Shown here piece by piece: positions 5,977-17,305 of a stretch of DNA of 23,107 nucleotides. Source of the DNA: a virus. The stretch lies in the IMG/VR virus record IMGVR_UViG_3300037069_000472, positions 1 to 23,107 of that record, one strand, 5' to 3'. Positions within the stretch are counted from its first letter, which is position 1; every line of letters begins with the position of its first letter. Below the pieces are notes generated by a model, which was not told the origin of the DNA, ran no database searches, and was given only the letters and a program-made list of their open reading frames with translations. Made by a program: the position numbers and the translations under genes.

Positions 5977-6164
5977 TGAATAAAACTCCCTGTTATCTCG
6001 ATCTCGAAAATGTCCCAATACGCTGCCGTCAGGTCGAACACAAAGAACTCCGACAAGAACTCGAAGCCCCGGCTTTCCAAGTACCGAACCATTGCCTTCT
6101 GCTCGTCTGTCAAAGCGTTCTCTGGGTTGGCCCCGATAATCTCGAAGACCTGCTCTGTCGTCAT
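5973..6164 (-). CDS. Hypothetical protein (63 aa)
   Basis: Starts at ATG 6164, overlapping the TGA of the RuvC-like gene (ATGA), and ends overlapping the next start. The protein opens MTTEQVFEIIGANPENALTD and ends in a hydrophobic/acidic stretch (FDLTAAYWDIFEIEI). It is acidic, small and probably soluble. I recognise no family. Its place inside a fully coupled operon next to a resolvase is the main support for it being real. Confidence 0.75.
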   Translation of the reverse strand: MTTEQVFEIIGANPENALTDEQKAMVRYLESRGFEFLSEFFVFDLTAAYWDIFEIEITGSFIQ

Positions 6165-6670
6165 TTCTTCTTTCCCTTCTTCTCCTGACGGGGAGCACCG
6201 TTCGTCAGAACGTCGTGTGCCCAGACTGCGATCGCGGTTGAACTCCAGATGTCATTTGCTACGCCGAAGAGGACACCCGGATTCTTTTTGTTCCCAGGCT
6301 CGCCAAAACGAGCTATAAGGGCCGCTCGGATCTGGGAGTCATTCGCCTTCGTCCCTCCGGTGTGATGCAGCTTAATTCGCGTCCTATTGACCTTCAGCAC
6401 TACCTTGGGTCCGGTTGCGGTCAGAAGCTCTTGCAGATGCCCGACGAAGAACGCAGTGTCGAATACCGTCTTGCCGACTGCCATTCCCATAGGCTGAATA
6501 CCTTCTACGGCCAAGGCAGAAACATTGTGGCTGTCGAGGTGGGCGAGAATCCAGTTGCGAACCTCGTCGTTCGGCGACAGCATCTTGTGAAGCACTCGCT
6601 GGCCGTCCCAAACTGTAAGCGCAGTCTGGACAGGAGCGGGGTCAATACCGCAAACGATCAGGTTTCCCAT
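6161..6670 (-). CDS. RuvC-like Holliday junction resolvase (169 aa)
   Basis: An RNase H-fold nuclease of the RuvC superfamily. The four acidic catalytic positions appear in the usual order: D10 in IVCGIDPAPV, E56 in ALAVEGIQPMG, D111 in GTKANDSQIRAAL, and D140 in VANDIWSSTAIAVWA. The length fits phage RuvC-like resolvases. The C-terminus ends in a lysine-rich tail (RQEKKGKKK). It should cleave branched DNA formed during replication and recombination, clearing DNA before packaging. Neighbours are recombination and replication genes. ATG 6670 is the start; the next gene overlaps by ATGA. Confidence 0.88.
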   Translation of the reverse strand: MGNLIVCGIDPAPVQTALTVWDGQRVLHKMLSPNDEVRNWILAHLDSHNVSALAVEGIQPMGMAVGKTVFDTAFFVGHLQELLTATGPKVVLKVNRTRIKLHHTGGTKANDSQIRAALIARFGEPGNKKNPGVLFGVANDIWSSTAIAVWAHDVLTNGAPRQEKKGKKK

Positions 6671-6961: not shown

Positions 6962-7528
6962 TTACCAGCGGGGCTTGCGAGCGGGTGTCGCTGCCGCTCC
7001 TGTCTGGTCCTGCGGGGTGTTTTCTGTCTGAGTTGGTTGCTGAGTGGTGGGCTTGCTGCGGGGTGTGACTGCCACTCCGAACAGGTCGTCAAGCTTCATG
7101 AGGTCGGAGCGTTCCGGCTTCTGTAGCTTGTCCATCCAAGCATTACCGTTGCCGCCTCCGTTTTGCTGTAAGGCGCTGAACTCGTCATAACCGCGATCGT
7201 TGATGCGGCAGGACGCGTCGAACTGAACTCCAGCCAAGCTGTGATGCTCGTTGTGATCTTTGTGCAGGCGAGACACGCTCGTACCGGCCGGGAACTGTGC
7301 GAACTGCAAGAATGACTTGGTGCGCTCGATCGAAGCTTCCGTCGTCCACAGTTTCACCGTGCGGAACTTGCCGGCAACAAACTTCTGGCTGTCGCCCTTC
7401 TTGATCGCAAGAACCTTACAGCTAAGGACGATGTAGGTCTGGCGGTCGTTCTGTGCCAAGGTGTTTGACAGAATCTCCAAGCGGTAGATTCCATCGGGAT
7501 ATTTGTAATTTGATTTTGTTTCGCTCAT
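6962..7528 (-). CDS. Probable ssDNA-binding-type recombination protein (188 aa)
   Basis: Starts at ATG 7528, directly preceded by AAAAAGAGAGAG. The N-terminal two-thirds look like a beta-rich OB-type fold (YPDGIYRLEILSNTLAQND, TYIVLSCKVLAIKKGD, VAGKFRTVKLWTT). The last 45 or so residues are Pro/Thr/Gln-rich and probably disordered, a common layout for phage single-stranded DNA-binding proteins with a flexible tail. The opening resembles DUF669-type phage proteins. The tail here ends in RKPRW rather than in an acidic tip as in E. coli SSB. Being close to a Sak4-like ATPase and a RecB-like nuclease supports a recombination role. The family call is tentative. Confidence 0.55.
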   Translation of the reverse strand: MSETKSNYKYPDGIYRLEILSNTLAQNDRQTYIVLSCKVLAIKKGDSQKFVAGKFRTVKLWTTEASIERTKSFLQFAQFPAGTSVSRLHKDHNEHHSLAGVQFDASCRINDRGYDEFSALQQNGGGNGNAWMDKLQKPERSDLMKLDDLFGVAVTPRSKPTTQQPTQTENTPQDQTGAAATPARKPRW

Positions 7529-7912: not shown

Positions 7913-8704
7913 TTATCCGTTAAGGGCCTCCACAAAAAGCTCCCACGACTCCTGCGCGTTGGCACCCAGGGGAATCTCGGCCGGAAGACCAAAGCGGTTC
8001 TTGGCTTCGAAGCTGGCCTTGCCCTGCGTGTACATGATCCGGCGCGTGCCGCCCTTGGCTTTGCCGGCGACTTTGATCTTGTCGGTCGGCTTGTTCGGGT
8101 CCGTTACGTCGATCACGTAATCAATGAGCAGCATGGCATCTACGTACTTGTTCGTCATGCTGAACTTCTCTTTGCCCATGCCAGGGCGGAATTGCAGGTA
8201 GTTCGTTCCATCGGGGTTCTGGATGGTGACGATATCCTTGTGCGCCAGGATGATGACGCGCATCTGCCGCTCTTGCTTCAGGTCTTTGATTGCTTCAAGC
8301 ACTTCAGACCAGTGCATCGCCGCGAACTTCTCGCCACGTCCAAAGGCCAAGAACTTGTCGCGCTCTCCTTCACAGTCAACCAGCGTAGCGTGCTCGTCGG
8401 CGAACTCATTCATGCCGCTGGCACCGTCAAGCACAACGAACTTGAAGTCGTGCTTTTCAGTCCGCAGGTCTCGCAGGAGACCCAGAAGATCATCGTGACT
8501 CTCAACGGTCGTTGTCGGCACATCCGGCCCGATCTGACCGTTCTCCTTGAGAACATCCACGCTCTCGTCTTTGACCTGTACCATCAGCACGTTCGGCGCG
8601 TTTGAGAACATGGTCGTCTTGCCGCTGCCGGGGGGGCCGTAAACCATCAGGACTGCTCCGGTCGGCTTTGCTTCAGTCGTAATTCGTGATGCTAATTTGC
8701 TCAA
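7913..8704 (-). CDS. Sak4-like RecA-type ATPase (263 aa)
   Basis: The TTG start at 8704 overlaps the TGA of the preceding gene (TTGA) and has GGAGAAGG upstream. Walker A is MVYGPPGSGKTT (residues 20-31). Walker B is FKFVVLDGASG (D93). RVIILAHKD gives a sensor-like strand, and the gap between Walker motifs suits a RecA-fold core without the extra domains of RecA. The length and pattern fit phage Sak4 / AAA_24 nucleotide-binding proteins, which assist single-strand annealing or strand exchange together with an SSB. It sits with an ssDNA-binding-like gene downstream and a RecB-like nuclease upstream, a classic phage recombination set. A general phage P-loop protein is the alternative. Confidence 0.85.
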   Translation of the reverse strand: MSKLASRITTEAKPTGAVLMVYGPPGSGKTTMFSNAPNVLMVQVKDESVDVLKENGQIGPDVPTTTVESHDDLLGLLRDLRTEKHDFKFVVLDGASGMNEFADEHATLVDCEGERDKFLAFGRGEKFAAMHWSEVLEAIKDLKQERQMRVIILAHKDIVTIQNPDGTNYLQFRPGMGKEKFSMTNKYVDAMLLIDYVIDVTDPNKPTDKIKVAGKAKGGTRRIMYTQGKASFEAKNRFGLPAEIPLGANAQESWELFVEALNG

Positions 8705-8928
8705 TTTACCTTCTCCTTTGTGAAATGTTGTGACACTAATTGAGATACAAATTTGATCGCGTCACTCATACGAACAAACCTCACTGGTTCTTGGAAGCTG
8801 CGATAGTACTCCCAGACTCCATTGCTCAACCTCTCGGCTCGATCCAGGATTAAACCCGAGTCCTGGTGCAAGAACAGAATCTCCTCTGCTCTAAACCATC
8901 TGCGAACCACTTTGATCTCTGGTGTCAA
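8701..8928 (-). CDS. Hypothetical protein (75 aa)
   Basis: The TTG start at 8928 overlaps the stop of the hyper-acidic ORF (TTGA). The sequence shows beta-type segments (EIKVVRRWFRAEEILFLHQD, GVWEYYRSFQEPVRFVRMSD) and an amphipathic helix near the end. It resembles many short phage proteins built from antiparallel strands, but I recognise no named family. It is coupled on both sides and so most likely belongs to the recombination operon. Confidence 0.7.
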   Translation of the reverse strand: MTPEIKVVRRWFRAEEILFLHQDSGLILDRAERLSNGVWEYYRSFQEPVRFVRMSDAIKFVSQLVSQHFTKEKVN

Positions 8929-9062
8929 AACTCGTCCTCCTCGTAGTCGTCCTCATCGTCTTCGAAGTCGAAGAAATCGTCATCATCGAAATCCTCATCA
9001 TCGTCATAATCCTCGTCGCCGTAGTCGTAACGGTCTTCCAGTTCTTGAAGGTATTCTTCCAT
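8925..9062 (-). CDS. Hyper-acidic 45-aa protein, possible DNA mimic
   Basis: This short frame runs from ATG 9062 to a TGA that overlaps the TTG start of the next gene. It begins five bases after the nuclease stop codon, with GGAGAG and AAAGG upstream. By my count 29 of 45 residues are Asp or Glu, with one Arg and no Lys. The other residues are mainly Tyr and Phe (opening MEEYLQELEDRYDYGDEDYD), giving an estimated net charge near -28. The reading frame is uninterrupted through a repetitive GAY/GAR codon tract, and the coupling supports translation. Small acidic phage proteins of this kind can mimic DNA (for example Ocr, Gam-like or Ugi-type inhibitors, though those are larger) or act as tails for partner proteins. 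Function is inferred only. Confidence 0.65.
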   Translation of the reverse strand: MEEYLQELEDRYDYGDEDYDDDEDFDDDDFFDFEDDEDDYEEDEF

Positions 9063-9066
9063 GCCT

Positions 9067-10152
9067 TTATTGGCTCTCCTTTATTTGTTCGAAATATGCT
9101 TCTAGTCCCGCGTGCCCACACGAGCCAACCACAAGCGGCTCGTCAAATTCCTCTGCTGCCTTTTTTAATCCAAGCTCGTACTGCCCGTAGTGCTTCTTGT
9201 TGCAGGTTCGGAAGGTCTTTATTCGGCTGTTCGTAATTACCTGCCTGTGCTCAATGCCGTCTGGCAAATCAAGCTCGGCATGGTTGGTTCCGGCCTGCTG
9301 CCAAACTGACTTGTCGTCTGCGTCTGATCGCCCAGAGCAAAGGCCCAAGAACTTGCAGGGACGGTTGTACTCAAAACATGCACCTGGGTTCTTTAGGTGT
9401 TTTCCTGTTTTGTGGGCAGAGTCAATAAGCTGAGTCCAGTCGTACAAATCAGAAGCAAAGTTCGCTAGATTATGTGAAAGAATCGGAACTCGCTTTCGAA
9501 GAAAATACTCGTCAGGATTCTTCAAGTAGACAGCCAGGATGCGCTCTTCAAACTCCTCGAAGGTCTCTCCCGCTGTGGTGTCTCGAACCTCTGCTCGTGC
9601 CGGTATCGTTTCACCCTTCAAGTAAACAGTCCCGTCTGGCTCCGTTGTTTTTCTGGCCGCAACTCGCTCTGGCTTTGCTTCTTGAACTACGCGAGAGCTT
9701 TCCTGCCGAATGCGATGCTGTGTTTTTACGAGGCAGTCCCACAGTGCGAAATCTACCTTTACTCCATTTAGGAGCTTTAGCAAGGCATAGGTCATCGGCT
9801 GAGAATCAATAAGCAAATGTTCGTGCCGATCTTCGTCAATCGCTGAACTCAGCAATTTGTGATCCATTAACCCGATGCTTCCTGTTTTCCTTTCTCGGAT
9901 CATTCCGTCAATCTTTCCAGCGGCCAAATAAGAGCTTTGCTTTTTGGTTTCTGGGTTGATAATCGGCCCTGTGATAAGTTCTTCAACGGAAAGAATTTCG
10001 TACCGTCCGTTGTCCTCTTTCCACTTCTGGTCGTAGGCGCGAATCATAGCTCTGCATCTTGCTCTGATTACGTCAAGATTCGGGTAATTGCGATTCTTTG
10101 CAAGGTACGAGTCGATTCCGTCCAGAGCGGCATTCAGGGGCGCGTTATGCAA
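9067..10152 (-). CDS. PD-(D/E)XK RecB-like nuclease with circularly permuted motif order (361 aa)
   Basis: The core motifs of a RecB/Cas4-type nuclease are all present but in rotated order. Motif II D82 (AAGKIDGM), motif III D97-x-K99 (LMDHKL), Q118-x3-Y122 (SQPMTYALL) and the cysteine cluster C259, C266, C272 (ACFEYNRPCKFLGLC) come first. The part that normally opens the domain comes last: SRIKTFRTCNKKHYGQYELG with C317, then H347 and E351 (VGSCGHAGLEAYFE). In AddB/Cas4-like enzymes the first cysteine is N-terminal and the other three C-terminal, together holding a 4Fe-4S cluster. Here all four are present, in swapped order. The start is TTG 10152, overlapping the upstream stop by 8 bases, without a strong Shine-Dalgarno. 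A role in DNA end processing with the Sak4-like ATPase is likely. Confidence 0.8.
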   Translation of the reverse strand: MHNAPLNAALDGIDSYLAKNRNYPNLDVIRARCRAMIRAYDQKWKEDNGRYEILSVEELITGPIINPETKKQSSYLAAGKIDGMIRERKTGSIGLMDHKLLSSAIDEDRHEHLLIDSQPMTYALLKLLNGVKVDFALWDCLVKTQHRIRQESSRVVQEAKPERVAARKTTEPDGTVYLKGETIPARAEVRDTTAGETFEEFEERILAVYLKNPDEYFLRKRVPILSHNLANFASDLYDWTQLIDSAHKTGKHLKNPGACFEYNRPCKFLGLCSGRSDADDKSVWQQAGTNHAELDLPDGIEHRQVITNSRIKTFRTCNKKHYGQYELGLKKAAEEFDEPLVVGSCGHAGLEAYFEQIKESQ

Positions 10153-10444
10153 TGGGCACCGCCGTATTGTTCAGACTGACAATGCGAACGCTCTTTCCGG
10201 TCGTTGCGTCCTTGATCTTCTTCAGTTCAATAAGACGACCCGCCTGCACTAGCTCTGTGATGCGAGGCCGAACGCTGTTCATGTCGCTGAAGCCAAGCAA
10301 CATGCAAATCTCCCGATCAGTAAGCGCCTCTCCGATGCCAAAAACTACATCCAGAATGGCCTTCTTGCGCTCGTCCAGCTTTTCGCACTCCTGAGAGTAA
10401 GCGGCCAGAGAGTTGCTGTGCATTTGATGTTCGGCGTGTTGCAT
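10145..10444 (-). CDS. Winged-helix-like DNA-binding protein (99 aa)
   Basis: Starts at ATG 10444 with GGGGATAAG upstream, three bases after the preceding stop. The middle section KKAILDVVFGIGEALTDREICMLLGFSDMNSVRPRITELVQAGRLIEL follows a helix-turn-helix plus wing pattern: a short helix, a recognition helix (SDMNSVRPRITELVQAG, with the R-x-R-x-x-E-L typical of MarR-like and phage wHTH proteins), then wing strands (GRLIELKKI, GKSVRIVSL). It lacks an enzymatic domain. Likely a DNA-binding accessory or regulatory protein. Its stop overlaps the nuclease start, so the two are co-translated. Confidence 0.7.
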   Translation of the reverse strand: MQHAEHQMHSNSLAAYSQECEKLDERKKAILDVVFGIGEALTDREICMLLGFSDMNSVRPRITELVQAGRLIELKKIKDATTGKSVRIVSLNNTAVPIA

Positions 10445-10447
10445 GGC

Positions 10448-10894
10448 TTATCCCCAGAAGTCCTCTCGGTCAAACGATGTCGTGTCGGCGTTGATGCGCT
10501 CTGGAACGTCGAAGAGCTTGACGGTTTCCTTCTGGCTGTATGCCTCTACTCCGTCTTGCGGCCGGAACAGGTCTCCGCATTCCTCGCACTCAAGAATCAC
10601 GCTGGCCGAGTAGCTGTGCTCTTCGAAGTCCTTCAGTTCCAGGTTCGCCATTCCATCGACGCGCAAAATCTGTCCGCTGCGGCTGATCCCCTGAATAGCC
10701 TTGGTGATCTTGTCGCCGCATGTCGGGCAGTTAGGCAGGCTGTCGTGGTAAGCGGCAAGCAGTTCGTCTGAGGCCGGCTGGATGGCTCCTGTCTCGTCTA
10801 CTGCATTGCCGTTCACATCTACGTGTCCTCTCCACACTGGAGGCTTGGGGGGTGCCCATAGGGTGATTAGCTGTATCTCTTTTCGTGTATTCAT
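10448..10894 (-). CDS. Zinc-binding protein with two CxxC knuckles (148 aa)
   Basis: Starts at ATG 10894, overlapping the TGA of the HNH gene (ATGA), with AAAGAGAGAGA upstream. Two CxxC pairs are visible: C56-P-T-C59 (LPNCPTCGDK) and C103-E-E-C106 (ILECEECGDLF), about 43 residues apart, as expected for one zinc ribbon closed by two knuckles. The N-terminus (LITLWAPPKPPVWRGHVDV) is tryptophan- and proline-containing. There is no catalytic motif. It may bind nucleic acid or a protein partner; no specific family is recognised. Confidence 0.7.
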   Translation of the reverse strand: MNTRKEIQLITLWAPPKPPVWRGHVDVNGNAVDETGAIQPASDELLAAYHDSLPNCPTCGDKITKAIQGISRSGQILRVDGMANLELKDFEEHSYSASVILECEECGDLFRPQDGVEAYSQKETVKLFDVPERINADTTSFDREDFWG

Positions 10895-11409
10895 CGTTCT
10901 CTCTCTCTTTTGTTATTTTTTACTTCAAAAAAACCAAGCATTTCGTTCGTCATTGCGAACTCTCCGTAATACTCGATAGCTGCCTTGTCGTAAGCCGCTG
11001 CTGCGTCAATCGGGCACTTGAATGAACCTAAGTAAATCTCAAGCCCAAAAGCTCGAATGCGAGCCCGATAGAGTTTCTTTTTCTTCCTGTACGTAACTCC
11101 CTTGAACCCAGTTGTATTGCTTCTACTGGGGACTCTGTTTCTGGAGTTTTCGGCTCTAGTTGCAAGCCTAAGATTCGACCTTCTGTTATCTCTCTTGTTT
11201 AGATTTATATGGTCAACACATACGGAGGGATCAGATACCCCAAGGATCATTCGGTGCATTTTCCCTCCACCAACCAAACCTTCCGCAAGGCAACAAGTAG
11301 TACATGCGTAACCGCAAGATATGTGCCATACGAACTCGTTCAGCCAATCGAAGTCGATGTCGTCCACCAAGATCGCCGTTCTTCGTCGCCCTGTAAGGAT
11401 CGTCCTCAT
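10891..11409 (-). CDS. HNH endonuclease with AP2 DNA-binding domain (172 aa)
   Basis: The start is placed at ATG 11409; TTG 11424 is possible. An HNH_3-type nuclease domain lies at about residues 51-92: H52 (MHRMILG), D66-H67-x-N69 (VCVDHINLNKRDN), N79-L-R81 and N88 (RAENSRNR). An AP2-like domain follows at about 101-152 (GFKGVTYRKKKKLYRARIR, then YLGSFKCPIDAAAAYDKAAI), which provides sequence-specific binding. This is the standard build of a free-standing phage homing endonuclease. Oddly, it is the first gene of the replication operon, directly after element B, and its last codons (NKRERER) are the GA-rich leader and start of the next gene (ATGA overlap). Confidence 0.9.
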   Translation of the reverse strand: MRTILTGRRRTAILVDDIDFDWLNEFVWHISCGYACTTCCLAEGLVGGGKMHRMILGVSDPSVCVDHINLNKRDNRRSNLRLATRAENSRNRVPSRSNTTGFKGVTYRKKKKLYRARIRAFGLEIYLGSFKCPIDAAAAYDKAAIEYYGEFAMTNEMLGFFEVKNNKRERER

Positions 11410-11433
11410 CTCTCTCGAAACCAATTTCCCAAA

Positions 11434-14587: not shown

Positions 14588-17305
14588 TTATTGATAGACA
14601 ACTACTACTGTCATGTGGTGCAAGGCTGCGCTTGGGGATATTATCGACTGAGAAATCGTAGCTCCCGATCCCACGCTCGTAACTGCCAAACTGGTCGAAG
14701 ACGATCCTGTGCTAGTGCAAGAAAAGCTCGCTGTTCCAATATTGGTGCCAGACGTAGTTAGCTGGAACGTAGTAGCCGAAGAGTCGTCAGAGATGCAATA
14801 GACAGACTGGATGGCCCATGACGATGCTCCGGTATTAACAGCAAGATTGGGGGCCGATCCAGAAGTTGTCGTCAGGGTATTTACGGTATCCGCAAACTGC
14901 CAAGACACGCGATGGGTTGGCACTACCGGGCTAGTTGCCTCCCACTTAGAATCTGTCCCGCTATAAACAAGGCTCTGGCCGTCTGTCGGAGTGCCAGATT
15001 TAACGGCGATGCCTTGAATCTTTCCGACAACAGATGCAGCCGCAGTTCCGGTTACATCACCCGTCAAAGGCACAGCAGAGGGGGCGACAGTGGCAACTCC
15101 TGGCTCGTACTGGCTGGTGGTTGCGTTCCAGAATAATCCTTGTCCGCCAGACGGAGCCGTGTTAGCCACGTTGAAGCCTTGAATCTCGATAGCGTTTGCG
15201 GCGGCCTGCGGGTTTGTCCAGATAAAGCTCGTGCCGTTGTAGATGAGAGCCTGTCCGGTGTTGGTCGGGGCTCCGGTGATCGTGATACCGCCGATCTTGG
15301 ATAGAGTGCTGGCCGCAGTCGTTCCACTCACGTCACCAGCCATCGCGTAGTTCGCAGGAGCAGCCGGAGGAGTGTAGGTCTTGGCTTCCCAATCCGAATT
15401 GGCCGTCACCCAAGTCATGAACTGCTGGTCGGAAGGCGTGCCGGCCTTGACTGCATTGCCTTGAATCTTGCCAACCACAGACGTATTGCTTTGGCTCGTC
15501 ACGTCGCCTGCCATCGTTACGGCCGTAGCTGTGGAGGTCGGGTTGCCGAAGACAAACTCGGAGCCGTCCCACATGACAGCCTGACCAGACAAAGGAGTGC
15601 CGGTAAGAGACAGGGTGTAGCCTTGCAGTTTTGCAATCAAGGCAGTGCTGGCCGTCTGCGACAAGTCGCCCCCGAGGGTTGGGTTCTGGGCCGGGATAGT
15701 CGTAGGCTGCCACTGGTTGTTCGAGGTATTGAAGATCAAAGCCTGTTTGTCGGTCGGAGCAGTGGCGGCCACGTTGAAGCCGTTAATTCGCGCTACAACG
15801 CTCGTGTTTGAATTGCTGGTCACATCCCCTGCCATGACTACCGAAGTGGCTGCCGTTGGCGTGGTGGGCTCCCAGGCGCTATCTGTAGCATTCCAGGTAA
15901 GCACCTGCTTGTCAGTCGGAGAGGTTGCGGAAACGGCCTTCGTCTGAAGGGTCGTAGCGTTGCTGTTTGCCGCCTTCGGTTCCCACTGGCTGTCAGCAGA
16001 TACCCACGTCATTACCTGCTTGTCTGACGGGGCCGAGTTGGAGACCGCATGGCCTTGAATCTTCGCAACGGTGCTTGCGTCGGTCGTACCGCTCACATCG
16101 CCCGTCATCGGGTAGTTGGTCGGAGATGATGCCTGCGGAGCCATAATGAACTTGCTTCCGTCATAGGTAAGCACGTAGTTCGTGGCGGCAGCCGTCAGGT
16201 CCAACGTAATGCCTTTCAAGCTGTTTACAGCCAGAGAAGAGATGGGGCCTGACAGGTCTCCCCCGACCGACTGCGGAGTGTACGTTCCGGCATTGAACGA
16301 AAGGATTTGGTTGGAGGTCGGAGCCGTGGCAGAAACCGCATGGCCCTGGAGGGCAACAACGGTCATGGCGTTAGACAGTCCGCTTGCATCGCCGCCCATC
16401 GAGACAGACGTTACGGCAGATGGCGCGGCAGGCACCCAATGGCCTCCCACAACCGTCATTACGTTGCCATCGGCAGGCGTACCGGACAGCGGAGTACCAA
16501 GCAGCTTTGCGACAACCGTGCTGCCGTTCGCTCCGGTCACTTCGCCGGCCAGGGTAACGGTAGGAGTCGGCAGCGGGGCAGGCACCCAGGCCGTTCCGTT
16601 GAAGGAGAAGTAGTCGCCGTTGGCAGGCGCGTTGGCAGAGACGGTAATGCCCTGAATCTTGGAAAGCGTATTGCTATCGGTCGAGCCCGTCAGGTCTCCG
16701 AGTAACGGCACGGACGAAGCGCCGGGGTTGCCCCAGATCACCTTGCCGGTTGCGAGGTCGTAAATCAGTGCTTGCTTGTCGGTAGGCGTCACTCCCTGGA
16801 TGTTGAACGGAGTTCCTTGCACCTTGTTGACGGTCAGGCCGTTGTACTGTCCGGTAGCGTCTCCTCCGACGAACAGGGTTTGAGGCACCCAGTTGCCAGA
16901 TACGAACTGCATCACTTCGTTGGTCGTAGGAGTTGCCGTAGATAAGGGAACGCCACGGAACGCCTGAATGACGCTCACACCATCGGAATTGCTCGACACG
17001 TCGCCGGTCAATGCCGATCCGCTGCCCGAAGCCAAGGTCCACTTGCCGCTCTGACAGACGAACAGCTTGCCAGAGTACTCTCCAAAGGCCTCGGCATTCG
17101 AGCAGTCCGTGTTTGTCGGGTCCGTCGTGAACACCGTGTACGGAATGACAAACAAAGCTTTGGAGAAGTCGCTGGACGAAGCCGCTGTGTAGACGTTCGA
17201 CTTAGACTTGAAAACGTCTCCCCCGCCTCCGGGGTTGACAACCTGTGCAAACAGAGTTGCAACAGAAAATAGCAGGGCTGCCCCTGCTTTGAATGCGTTA
17301 TTCAT
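14588..17305 (-). CDS. Repeat-rich tail-fibre-like protein with signal peptide (905 aa)
   Basis: Starts at ATG 17305, directly after the lysozyme stop (TAAATG). Residues 1-20 (MNNAFKAGAALLFSVATLFA) look like a Sec signal peptide. Residues about 101-796 hold 12 units of roughly 40-46 aa built on GD(V/L/A)(S/T)G...(V/L)xK(I/L)QGxxV...APTxxQ(V/A)L.W....W.P, plus two half units that lack the GDVxG half. A distinct 109-residue C-terminal domain (from THRVSWQFAD, ending HMTVVVVYQ) follows. Repeats of this pattern are known from phage fibres and bacterial surface proteins, and form elongated beta-rich, probably trimeric rods; the C-terminus could be the receptor-binding or trimerisation tip. A signal peptide on a virion fibre is unusual. 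Confidence 0.8.
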   Translation of the reverse strand: MNNAFKAGAALLFSVATLFAQVVNPGGGGDVFKSKSNVYTAASSSDFSKALFVIPYTVFTTDPTNTDCSNAEAFGEYSGKLFVCQSGKWTLASGSGSALTGDVSSNSDGVSVIQAFRGVPLSTATPTTNEVMQFVSGNWVPQTLFVGGDATGQYNGLTVNKVQGTPFNIQGVTPTDKQALIYDLATGKVIWGNPGASSVPLLGDLTGSTDSNTLSKIQGITVSANAPANGDYFSFNGTAWVPAPLPTPTVTLAGEVTGANGSTVVAKLLGTPLSGTPADGNVMTVVGGHWVPAAPSAVTSVSMGGDASGLSNAMTVVALQGHAVSATAPTSNQILSFNAGTYTPQSVGGDLSGPISSLAVNSLKGITLDLTAAATNYVLTYDGSKFIMAPQASSPTNYPMTGDVSGTTDASTVAKIQGHAVSNSAPSDKQVMTWVSADSQWEPKAANSNATTLQTKAVSATSPTDKQVLTWNATDSAWEPTTPTAATSVVMAGDVTSNSNTSVVARINGFNVAATAPTDKQALIFNTSNNQWQPTTIPAQNPTLGGDLSQTASTALIAKLQGYTLSLTGTPLSGQAVMWDGSEFVFGNPTSTATAVTMAGDVTSQSNTSVVGKIQGNAVKAGTPSDQQFMTWVTANSDWEAKTYTPPAAPANYAMAGDVSGTTAASTLSKIGGITITGAPTNTGQALIYNGTSFIWTNPQAAANAIEIQGFNVANTAPSGGQGLFWNATTSQYEPGVATVAPSAVPLTGDVTGTAAASVVGKIQGIAVKSGTPTDGQSLVYSGTDSKWEATSPVVPTHRVSWQFADTVNTLTTTSGSAPNLAVNTGASSWAIQSVYCISDDSSATTFQLTTSGTNIGTASFSCTSTGSSSTSLAVTSVGSGATISQSIISPSAALHHMTVVVVYQ
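14918..17005 (-). repeat. Protein-level tandem repeat array (about 12 full and 2 half units)
   Basis: This part of the 905-aa gene encodes about 14 diverged units. Recurrent stretches include KIQGxxV, APTDKQAL, TPTDGQSL and GDVTSxSNTSVV. At the DNA level they are not identical, but phrases such as TTGCCTTGAATCTT recur, so the array is old and under selection for protein pattern rather than a fresh duplication. Confidence 0.8.

Follow-up and report, generated by a model that had tools for sequence, protein, structure and literature searches.

A very probable circular permutation of a RecB/Cas4-type PD-(D/E)XK exonuclease in a phage exonuclease–Sak4–SSB module

The PHROG 1218 exonucleases are annotated as RecB-like or Cas4 family proteins in actinobacteriophages, such as the Microbacterium phages Htur and PermaG. 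The chain of these enzymes has the conventional order, in which the Cys/GxxxH segment comes first. Sak4 from phage HK620 has single-strand annealing activity, which its own SSB stimulates (PMC5928155). Two isolated Tunturiibacter phages with circular genomes, Tunturi_1 and Tunturi_2, have been described in a paper whose main text does not contain the word exonuclease (PMC11924767). Their proteins XJP11549.1 and XOB77130.1 are publicly annotated as 'exonuclease' only.

The window analyzed here is the whole stretch of 23,107 nucleotides of the IMG/VR virus record IMGVR_UViG_3300037069_000472. The gene at 9067–10152 very probably encodes a circularly permuted RecB/Cas4-type PD-(D/E)XK exonuclease (PHROG 1218), located in a phage exonuclease–Sak4–SSB recombination module. 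The single intact frame described in the original prediction was confirmed, with 361 codons from 10152 to 9067 on the minus strand, a strand that the prediction had not named. D82, D97-x-K99, Q118-x3-Y122, C259, C266, C272, C317, H347 and E351, the residues it had named, were all found at their positions. The gene and its parts are given below, with conservation counts among 45 dereplicated permuted homologues (<92% identical, the window protein included).

9067–10152, minus strand: gene of the putative permuted RecB/Cas4-type exonuclease, 361 aa, TTG start at 10152, stop at 9069–9067
9247–10152, minus strand: residues 1–302, the former C-terminal part, with a helix, the core beta sheet carrying motifs II and III, Q-x3-Y and three cysteines (PHROG 1218 positions 97–337; body-profile match to conventional relatives)
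9070–9246, minus strand: residues 303–361, the former N-terminal segment (TNSRIKTFRTC, GxxxH), now C-terminal (PDDEXK_1 positions 4–52; segment profile)
9235–9270, minus strand: linker, residues 295–306, between H-x-EL of the old C-terminus and TNS of the old N-terminus
9856–9909, minus strand: catalytic motifs II and III, D82 ... D97-x-K99 (D82 and K99 45/45; position 97 D in 39, E in 6)
9787–9801, minus strand: Q118-x3-Y122, RecB-family motif (45/45)
9337–9378, minus strand: C259, C266 and C272 (C-x6-C-x5-C), three of the four putative 4Fe-4S ligands (45/45)
9202–9204, minus strand: C317, which completes the set of four putative cluster ligands and now sits in the C-terminal instead of the N-terminal part (45/45)
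9100–9114, minus strand: H347 (GxxxH motif; 45/45) and E351 (E in 25, D in 14 of 45)

The ribosome site ahead of the TTG start was weak. The upstream gene (10145–10444, minus strand) overlapped this start by 8 bases, so translation of the two genes may be coupled. The start had originally been taken as newly created, and this idea of a recent origin was dropped because the permuted family is diverse and old. An HNH endonuclease, possibly a free-standing homing enzyme, was encoded further upstream at 10891–11424 (minus strand).

In hmmscan searches of the native chain, PHROG 1218 positions 97–337 were aligned to residues 30–280 (phrog_1218, 7.1e-29 for the whole protein), and positions 4–52 of Pfam PDDEXK_1 were aligned to residues 308–356 with an E-value of 1.2e-10, over the cut-off. 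These matches were far beyond chance. The PHROG 1218 match of the native chain consisted of two swapped pieces, and the order shared by all conventional members tested, with the Cys/GxxxH segment before motifs II and III, was broken in the window protein. A profile search with the halves swapped had been set beforehand as the test, and it gave the longer and higher-scoring alignment after rotation. When the protein was rotated at residue 303, a single PHROG 1218 match was obtained, with residues 2–339 on positions 8–337 of 364, and the score was 110 bits for the rotated versus 102 bits for the native chain; the Tunturi_2 protein behaved likewise. The Pfam score rose from 42 bits in native order to 53 bits after rotation. 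In hhalign comparisons of the family profile with distant conventional enzymes, the scores for native and rotated order were 155 (209 columns, E 6.7e-21) and 252 (268 columns, E 6.7e-35), respectively. For close conventional enzymes, the native profile scored 424 (254 columns) and the rotated one 554 (331 columns, E 3e-78). A scan of cut points gave the top scores at cuts 280–303 around the linker, falling off on both sides. A segment profile was matched at the N-terminus in conventional loci and at the C-terminus in permuted loci.

Conservation was assessed across the 45 homologues. Y40, E57, G79, D82, K99, Q118, Y122, D139, K143, R204, C259, C266, C272, S309, C317, G343 and H347 were invariant (45/45), in agreement with the original claim that all four cysteines are kept. 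The motifs G-x2-D, D/E-x-K, Q-x3-Y and GxxxH were present in all 45 or with conservative substitution. E351 was kept more loosely, since position 351 was E or D in 39 of the 45. By what is established for the family, these residues represent the RecB/Cas4 catalytic motifs together with the AddB/Cas4-like cysteine set. The four-cysteine pattern of AddB/Cas4-like 4Fe-4S nucleases was found in permuted order, as C317 plus C259/C266/C272. The moved segment and the body are therefore subject to the same constraint. The linker was 6–19 aa long across the family, mostly 10–13 and about 11. The YWRQ stretch near residue 112, common in the family, was missing from the window protein, which also formed a long branch within the permuted family in the tree, so reduced activity of this copy is possible.

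An AlphaFold2 model built from a 43-sequence alignment was confident, with a mean pLDDT of 88, a pTM of 0.84 and a pLDDT of about 95 for the moved segment; low confidence was mainly limited to residues 153–192. Its elements H308–316, H318–326, E329–331 and H338–360 corresponded to the N-terminal H8–16, H18–26, E29–31 and H36–54 of the conventional control L015, and the other secondary-structure elements had the same order in both models. This control is not fully independent, because its alignment contained fragments of permuted proteins. Foldseek aligns in chain order, and it matched the control to AdnA over 229–239 columns (TMq 0.57–0.58) and to CtACE1, of the Cas4 family, over 270 columns (0.51). 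The permuted model matched AdnA, CtACE1 and AddB, with only 124–162 columns and a TMq of 0.25–0.27 for AdnA and 0.30 for CtACE1; a short chain-order match is what a permutation is expected to give. When solved structures were searched by sequence, the matches were weak and limited to AdnA-like helicase-nucleases. Near whole-length matches with the same chain order were found in a viral structure library for A0A6J5NSY1 (TM 0.74/0.77) and A0A6J5MFE0 (TM 0.57/0.72), named only as PD-(D/E)XK nucleases; going by the models, both are probably permuted too. The RecB/Cas4-type PD-(D/E)XK fold of the window protein is thus a predicted one. The former C-terminus (H-x-EL) is joined by the linker to the former N-terminus (TNSRI), and the new termini lie in a short inter-helix loop. 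The permuted chain would adopt the fold of the conventional domain. In it, the metal site would be made up of D82, D97, K99 and H347, and a 4Fe-4S cluster bound by C259, C266, C272 and C317 would tie the two former termini to each other.

The permuted form was found in 46 distinct members from two isolated phages, metagenomic viruses and genome assemblies (45 after dereplication at 92%, with the window included, plus one from another genome assembly). Tunturi_1 and Tunturi_2 had the same permuted order. A junction-spanning query recovered ten permuted and three conventional proteins from viral contigs, and a family query recovered 58 loci and two further loci in bacterial genome assemblies. 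No match was obtained when viral contigs were scanned with the window protein alone, with a three-sequence alignment or with one Tunturi protein, nor in the first genome scan or among plasmids. Among 50,697 phage records, the permuted query in native order matched over most of its length only in the Tunturi phages, and rotated queries recovered conventional enzymes. The PHROG 1218 profile was matched by all 43 permuted members searched. All 13 virus records and both Tunturi genomes had the PHROG 1218 body (about 97–329) first and the N-segment (about 5–62) second, in one open frame and with no other copy. One further locus, L073:3310–4330, had a permuted exonuclease broken across two overlapping frames, by a frameshift or a sequencing error.

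The origin of the permutation was examined in 294 genomes of the phylum of the L074 genome (a Planctomycetaceae assembly) and 284 of the phylum of the L075 genome (a Deltaproteobacteria assembly). These yielded one more permuted protein as well as close conventional relatives, the best of them at an E-value of 2.9e-69. A tree built from 68 proteins placed the permuted ones in one clade (99/93) with one change, recovered in 100% of bootstrap trees, and the conventional enzymes on successive outer branches around it. The midpoint served as a drawing root for this tree, in which the window protein and some conventional rows were long-branched. The sequence tree supports a single origin of the permuted form among conventional enzymes. 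The conventional proteins began with a stretch like LTxSR and ended with H-x-EL and a short tail. The new chain ends lie in the loop that separates LEAWW from the following helix (ALxxAL) and that is short in the nearest conventional proteins; residue-by-residue alignment showed that no part of the domain had been lost. The gene probably underwent an in-frame tandem duplication where it stood and then lost the two outer halves. This route, proposed in the original prediction, stood as plausible, as it would give exactly the observed arrangement; it is unproven because the duplicated intermediate was not found. No second copy of the moved segment was found in the window or the permuted loci, and no direct repeats marking a recent duplication were seen. 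The 4Fe-4S cluster, by pinning the former ends together, may have made the permutation easy.

Two observations were made on the conventional relatives. Four of them (L095–L098) occurred in one bacterial assembly, G123, each with a Sak4-like gene nearby, and are probably located in several of its prophages. Two others, G449:C316:8282–9034 (L111) and G545:C278:22371–23105, each had one TGA inside the match, which may be a sequencing error, a pseudogene or a stop reassignment.

Other explanations of the locus were weighed against this evidence. An artefact of assembly, or a break and rejoining of the gene confined to the window contig, could be suspected in a metagenomic virus record without read data and with a TTG start behind a weak ribosome site. 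However, two isolated phages (PMC11924767) share this junction, as do dozens of contigs encoding proteins that, where aligned, were only 28–37% identical to the window protein. Its recurrence in independent genomes shows that the junction did not come from assembly. This refuting outcome, named in the original prediction, thus did not occur, and an artefact is virtually out of the question. Being homologous to a nuclease N-terminus, the C-terminal segment might instead have been added as an extra copy, or might open a second nuclease, while the true first segment lies elsewhere. The missing N-terminal half that would then be expected was absent from the window and the permuted loci, and each virus record carried the body once and the segment once, within the same open frame. 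The confidence of the segment within the predicted fold and the invariance of C317 and H347 in all 45 homologues also argue against this reading, which is highly improbable. A second overlapping nuclease was considered and dropped as well.

It is improbable, but less so, that the protein is a degenerate or regulatory relative without catalysis, such as a DNA-binding partner of Sak4. The long branch of the window copy and its missing common stretch would fit such a role, but the catalytic D, D/E, K, H, Q and Y are conserved over a very diverged family. Some folds can undergo natural circular permutation repeatedly, and the permutation seen here could have arisen several times, or the conventional form could derive from the permuted one. 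Against this stand the single clade and single change in every bootstrap tree, the conventional enzymes on the successive outer branches, and a linker position and breakpoint common to the permuted proteins, making this explanation very improbable. The permuted order, the moved first cysteine and the one reassembled nuclease domain, all proposed from the first reading of the DNA, were supported by the rotation test, the 46 homologues, the confident model and the single-origin tree.

The preferred reading of a permuted exonuclease also agrees with the gene neighbourhood. The neighbouring genes of the module were as follows.

7913–8704, minus strand: Sak4-like single-strand annealing protein, the downstream partner (phrog_124, 3.5e-33)
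6962–7528, minus strand: probable SSB-like protein (phmmer match to the SSB-position genes of L005, L034, L044 and L074)
6161–6670, minus strand: RuvC-like Holliday junction resolvase in the same gene run (phrog_159, 7.4e-07; phrog_1770, 9.6e-07)

Further on, the window also encoded a DnaB-like helicase; the SSB-like protein of the window had no PHROG match of its own. The exonuclease gene adjoined the gene for the single-strand annealing protein, as in an exonuclease–annealase module. A Sak4-like annealase was encoded directly downstream in all 37 testable permuted loci (dereplicated and with enough sequence), mostly with an SSB gene next. The order of exonuclease, Sak4 and SSB in relatives agreed with that of the window, and the close conventional relatives likewise lay beside a Sak4-like gene. 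On the simplest reading, the enzyme may function in the resection of phage DNA ends: it would degrade one strand from the ends, and Sak4 and SSB would anneal the exposed strand. In a bolder reading, a single ancient permutation created a new topology of Cas4/RecB-type Fe-S nucleases, which was cheap because the cluster staples the ends and whose termini were kept for better strand hand-over to Sak4 and SSB. We regard this combination as conceivable but doubtful.

Two other products of the window were observed. Between the exonuclease and Sak4 genes, an ORF of 45 aa (8925–9062, minus strand) with a good ribosome site (AAAGGAG) had D or E in 29 of its 45 residues; by its sequence it looks like a DNA-mimic protein, at a position where other phages have recombination accessories. 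The gene at 14588–17305 (minus strand) encoded a 905-aa protein, probably a tail fibre or spike, which consists of repeats (GDVTG...KIQG...P..GQ.L.WN).

By homology, motifs and predicted fold, the permuted proteins are assigned to the RecB/Cas4-type PD-(D/E)XK exonucleases, and by their chain order they are a topology variant of them. They are a clear case of circular permutation in nature, here in a putative iron-sulfur nuclease. No description of a permuted RecB/Cas4-type phage nuclease was found in the open papers searched, a partial coverage of the literature. As far as seen, permuted sequences have already been deposited and their chain order has apparently gone unremarked. The permutation explains why automated annotation takes such proteins as two partial matches, and it suggests that order-dependent searches, both sequence profiles and chain-order fold comparison, under-score permuted enzymes.

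The nuclease domains of AddB, AdnA, Cas4 and RecB share the catalytic motifs with the window protein, and the cysteine set is like that of AddB and Cas4; however, the order of the segments differs, and the body alone aligns in chain order. The PHROG 1218 exonucleases have the same domain and motifs and are matched in one piece after rotation of the window protein, but differ in having the Cys/GxxxH segment at the start of the chain. The Tunturi exonucleases, 33–34% identical to the window protein and with Sak4 and SSB genes following them, have the same permuted order and no architectural difference from it. The close conventional relatives in bacterial genomes (L094–L107 and L109–L111), which have the 331-column match after rotation, the H-x-EL tail and the Sak4 neighbour, differ in being unpermuted, with an unbroken helix loop at the place of the permuted termini. 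Because these unpermuted relatives share the gene setting, the cost and consequence of the rewiring are directly comparable between the two forms.
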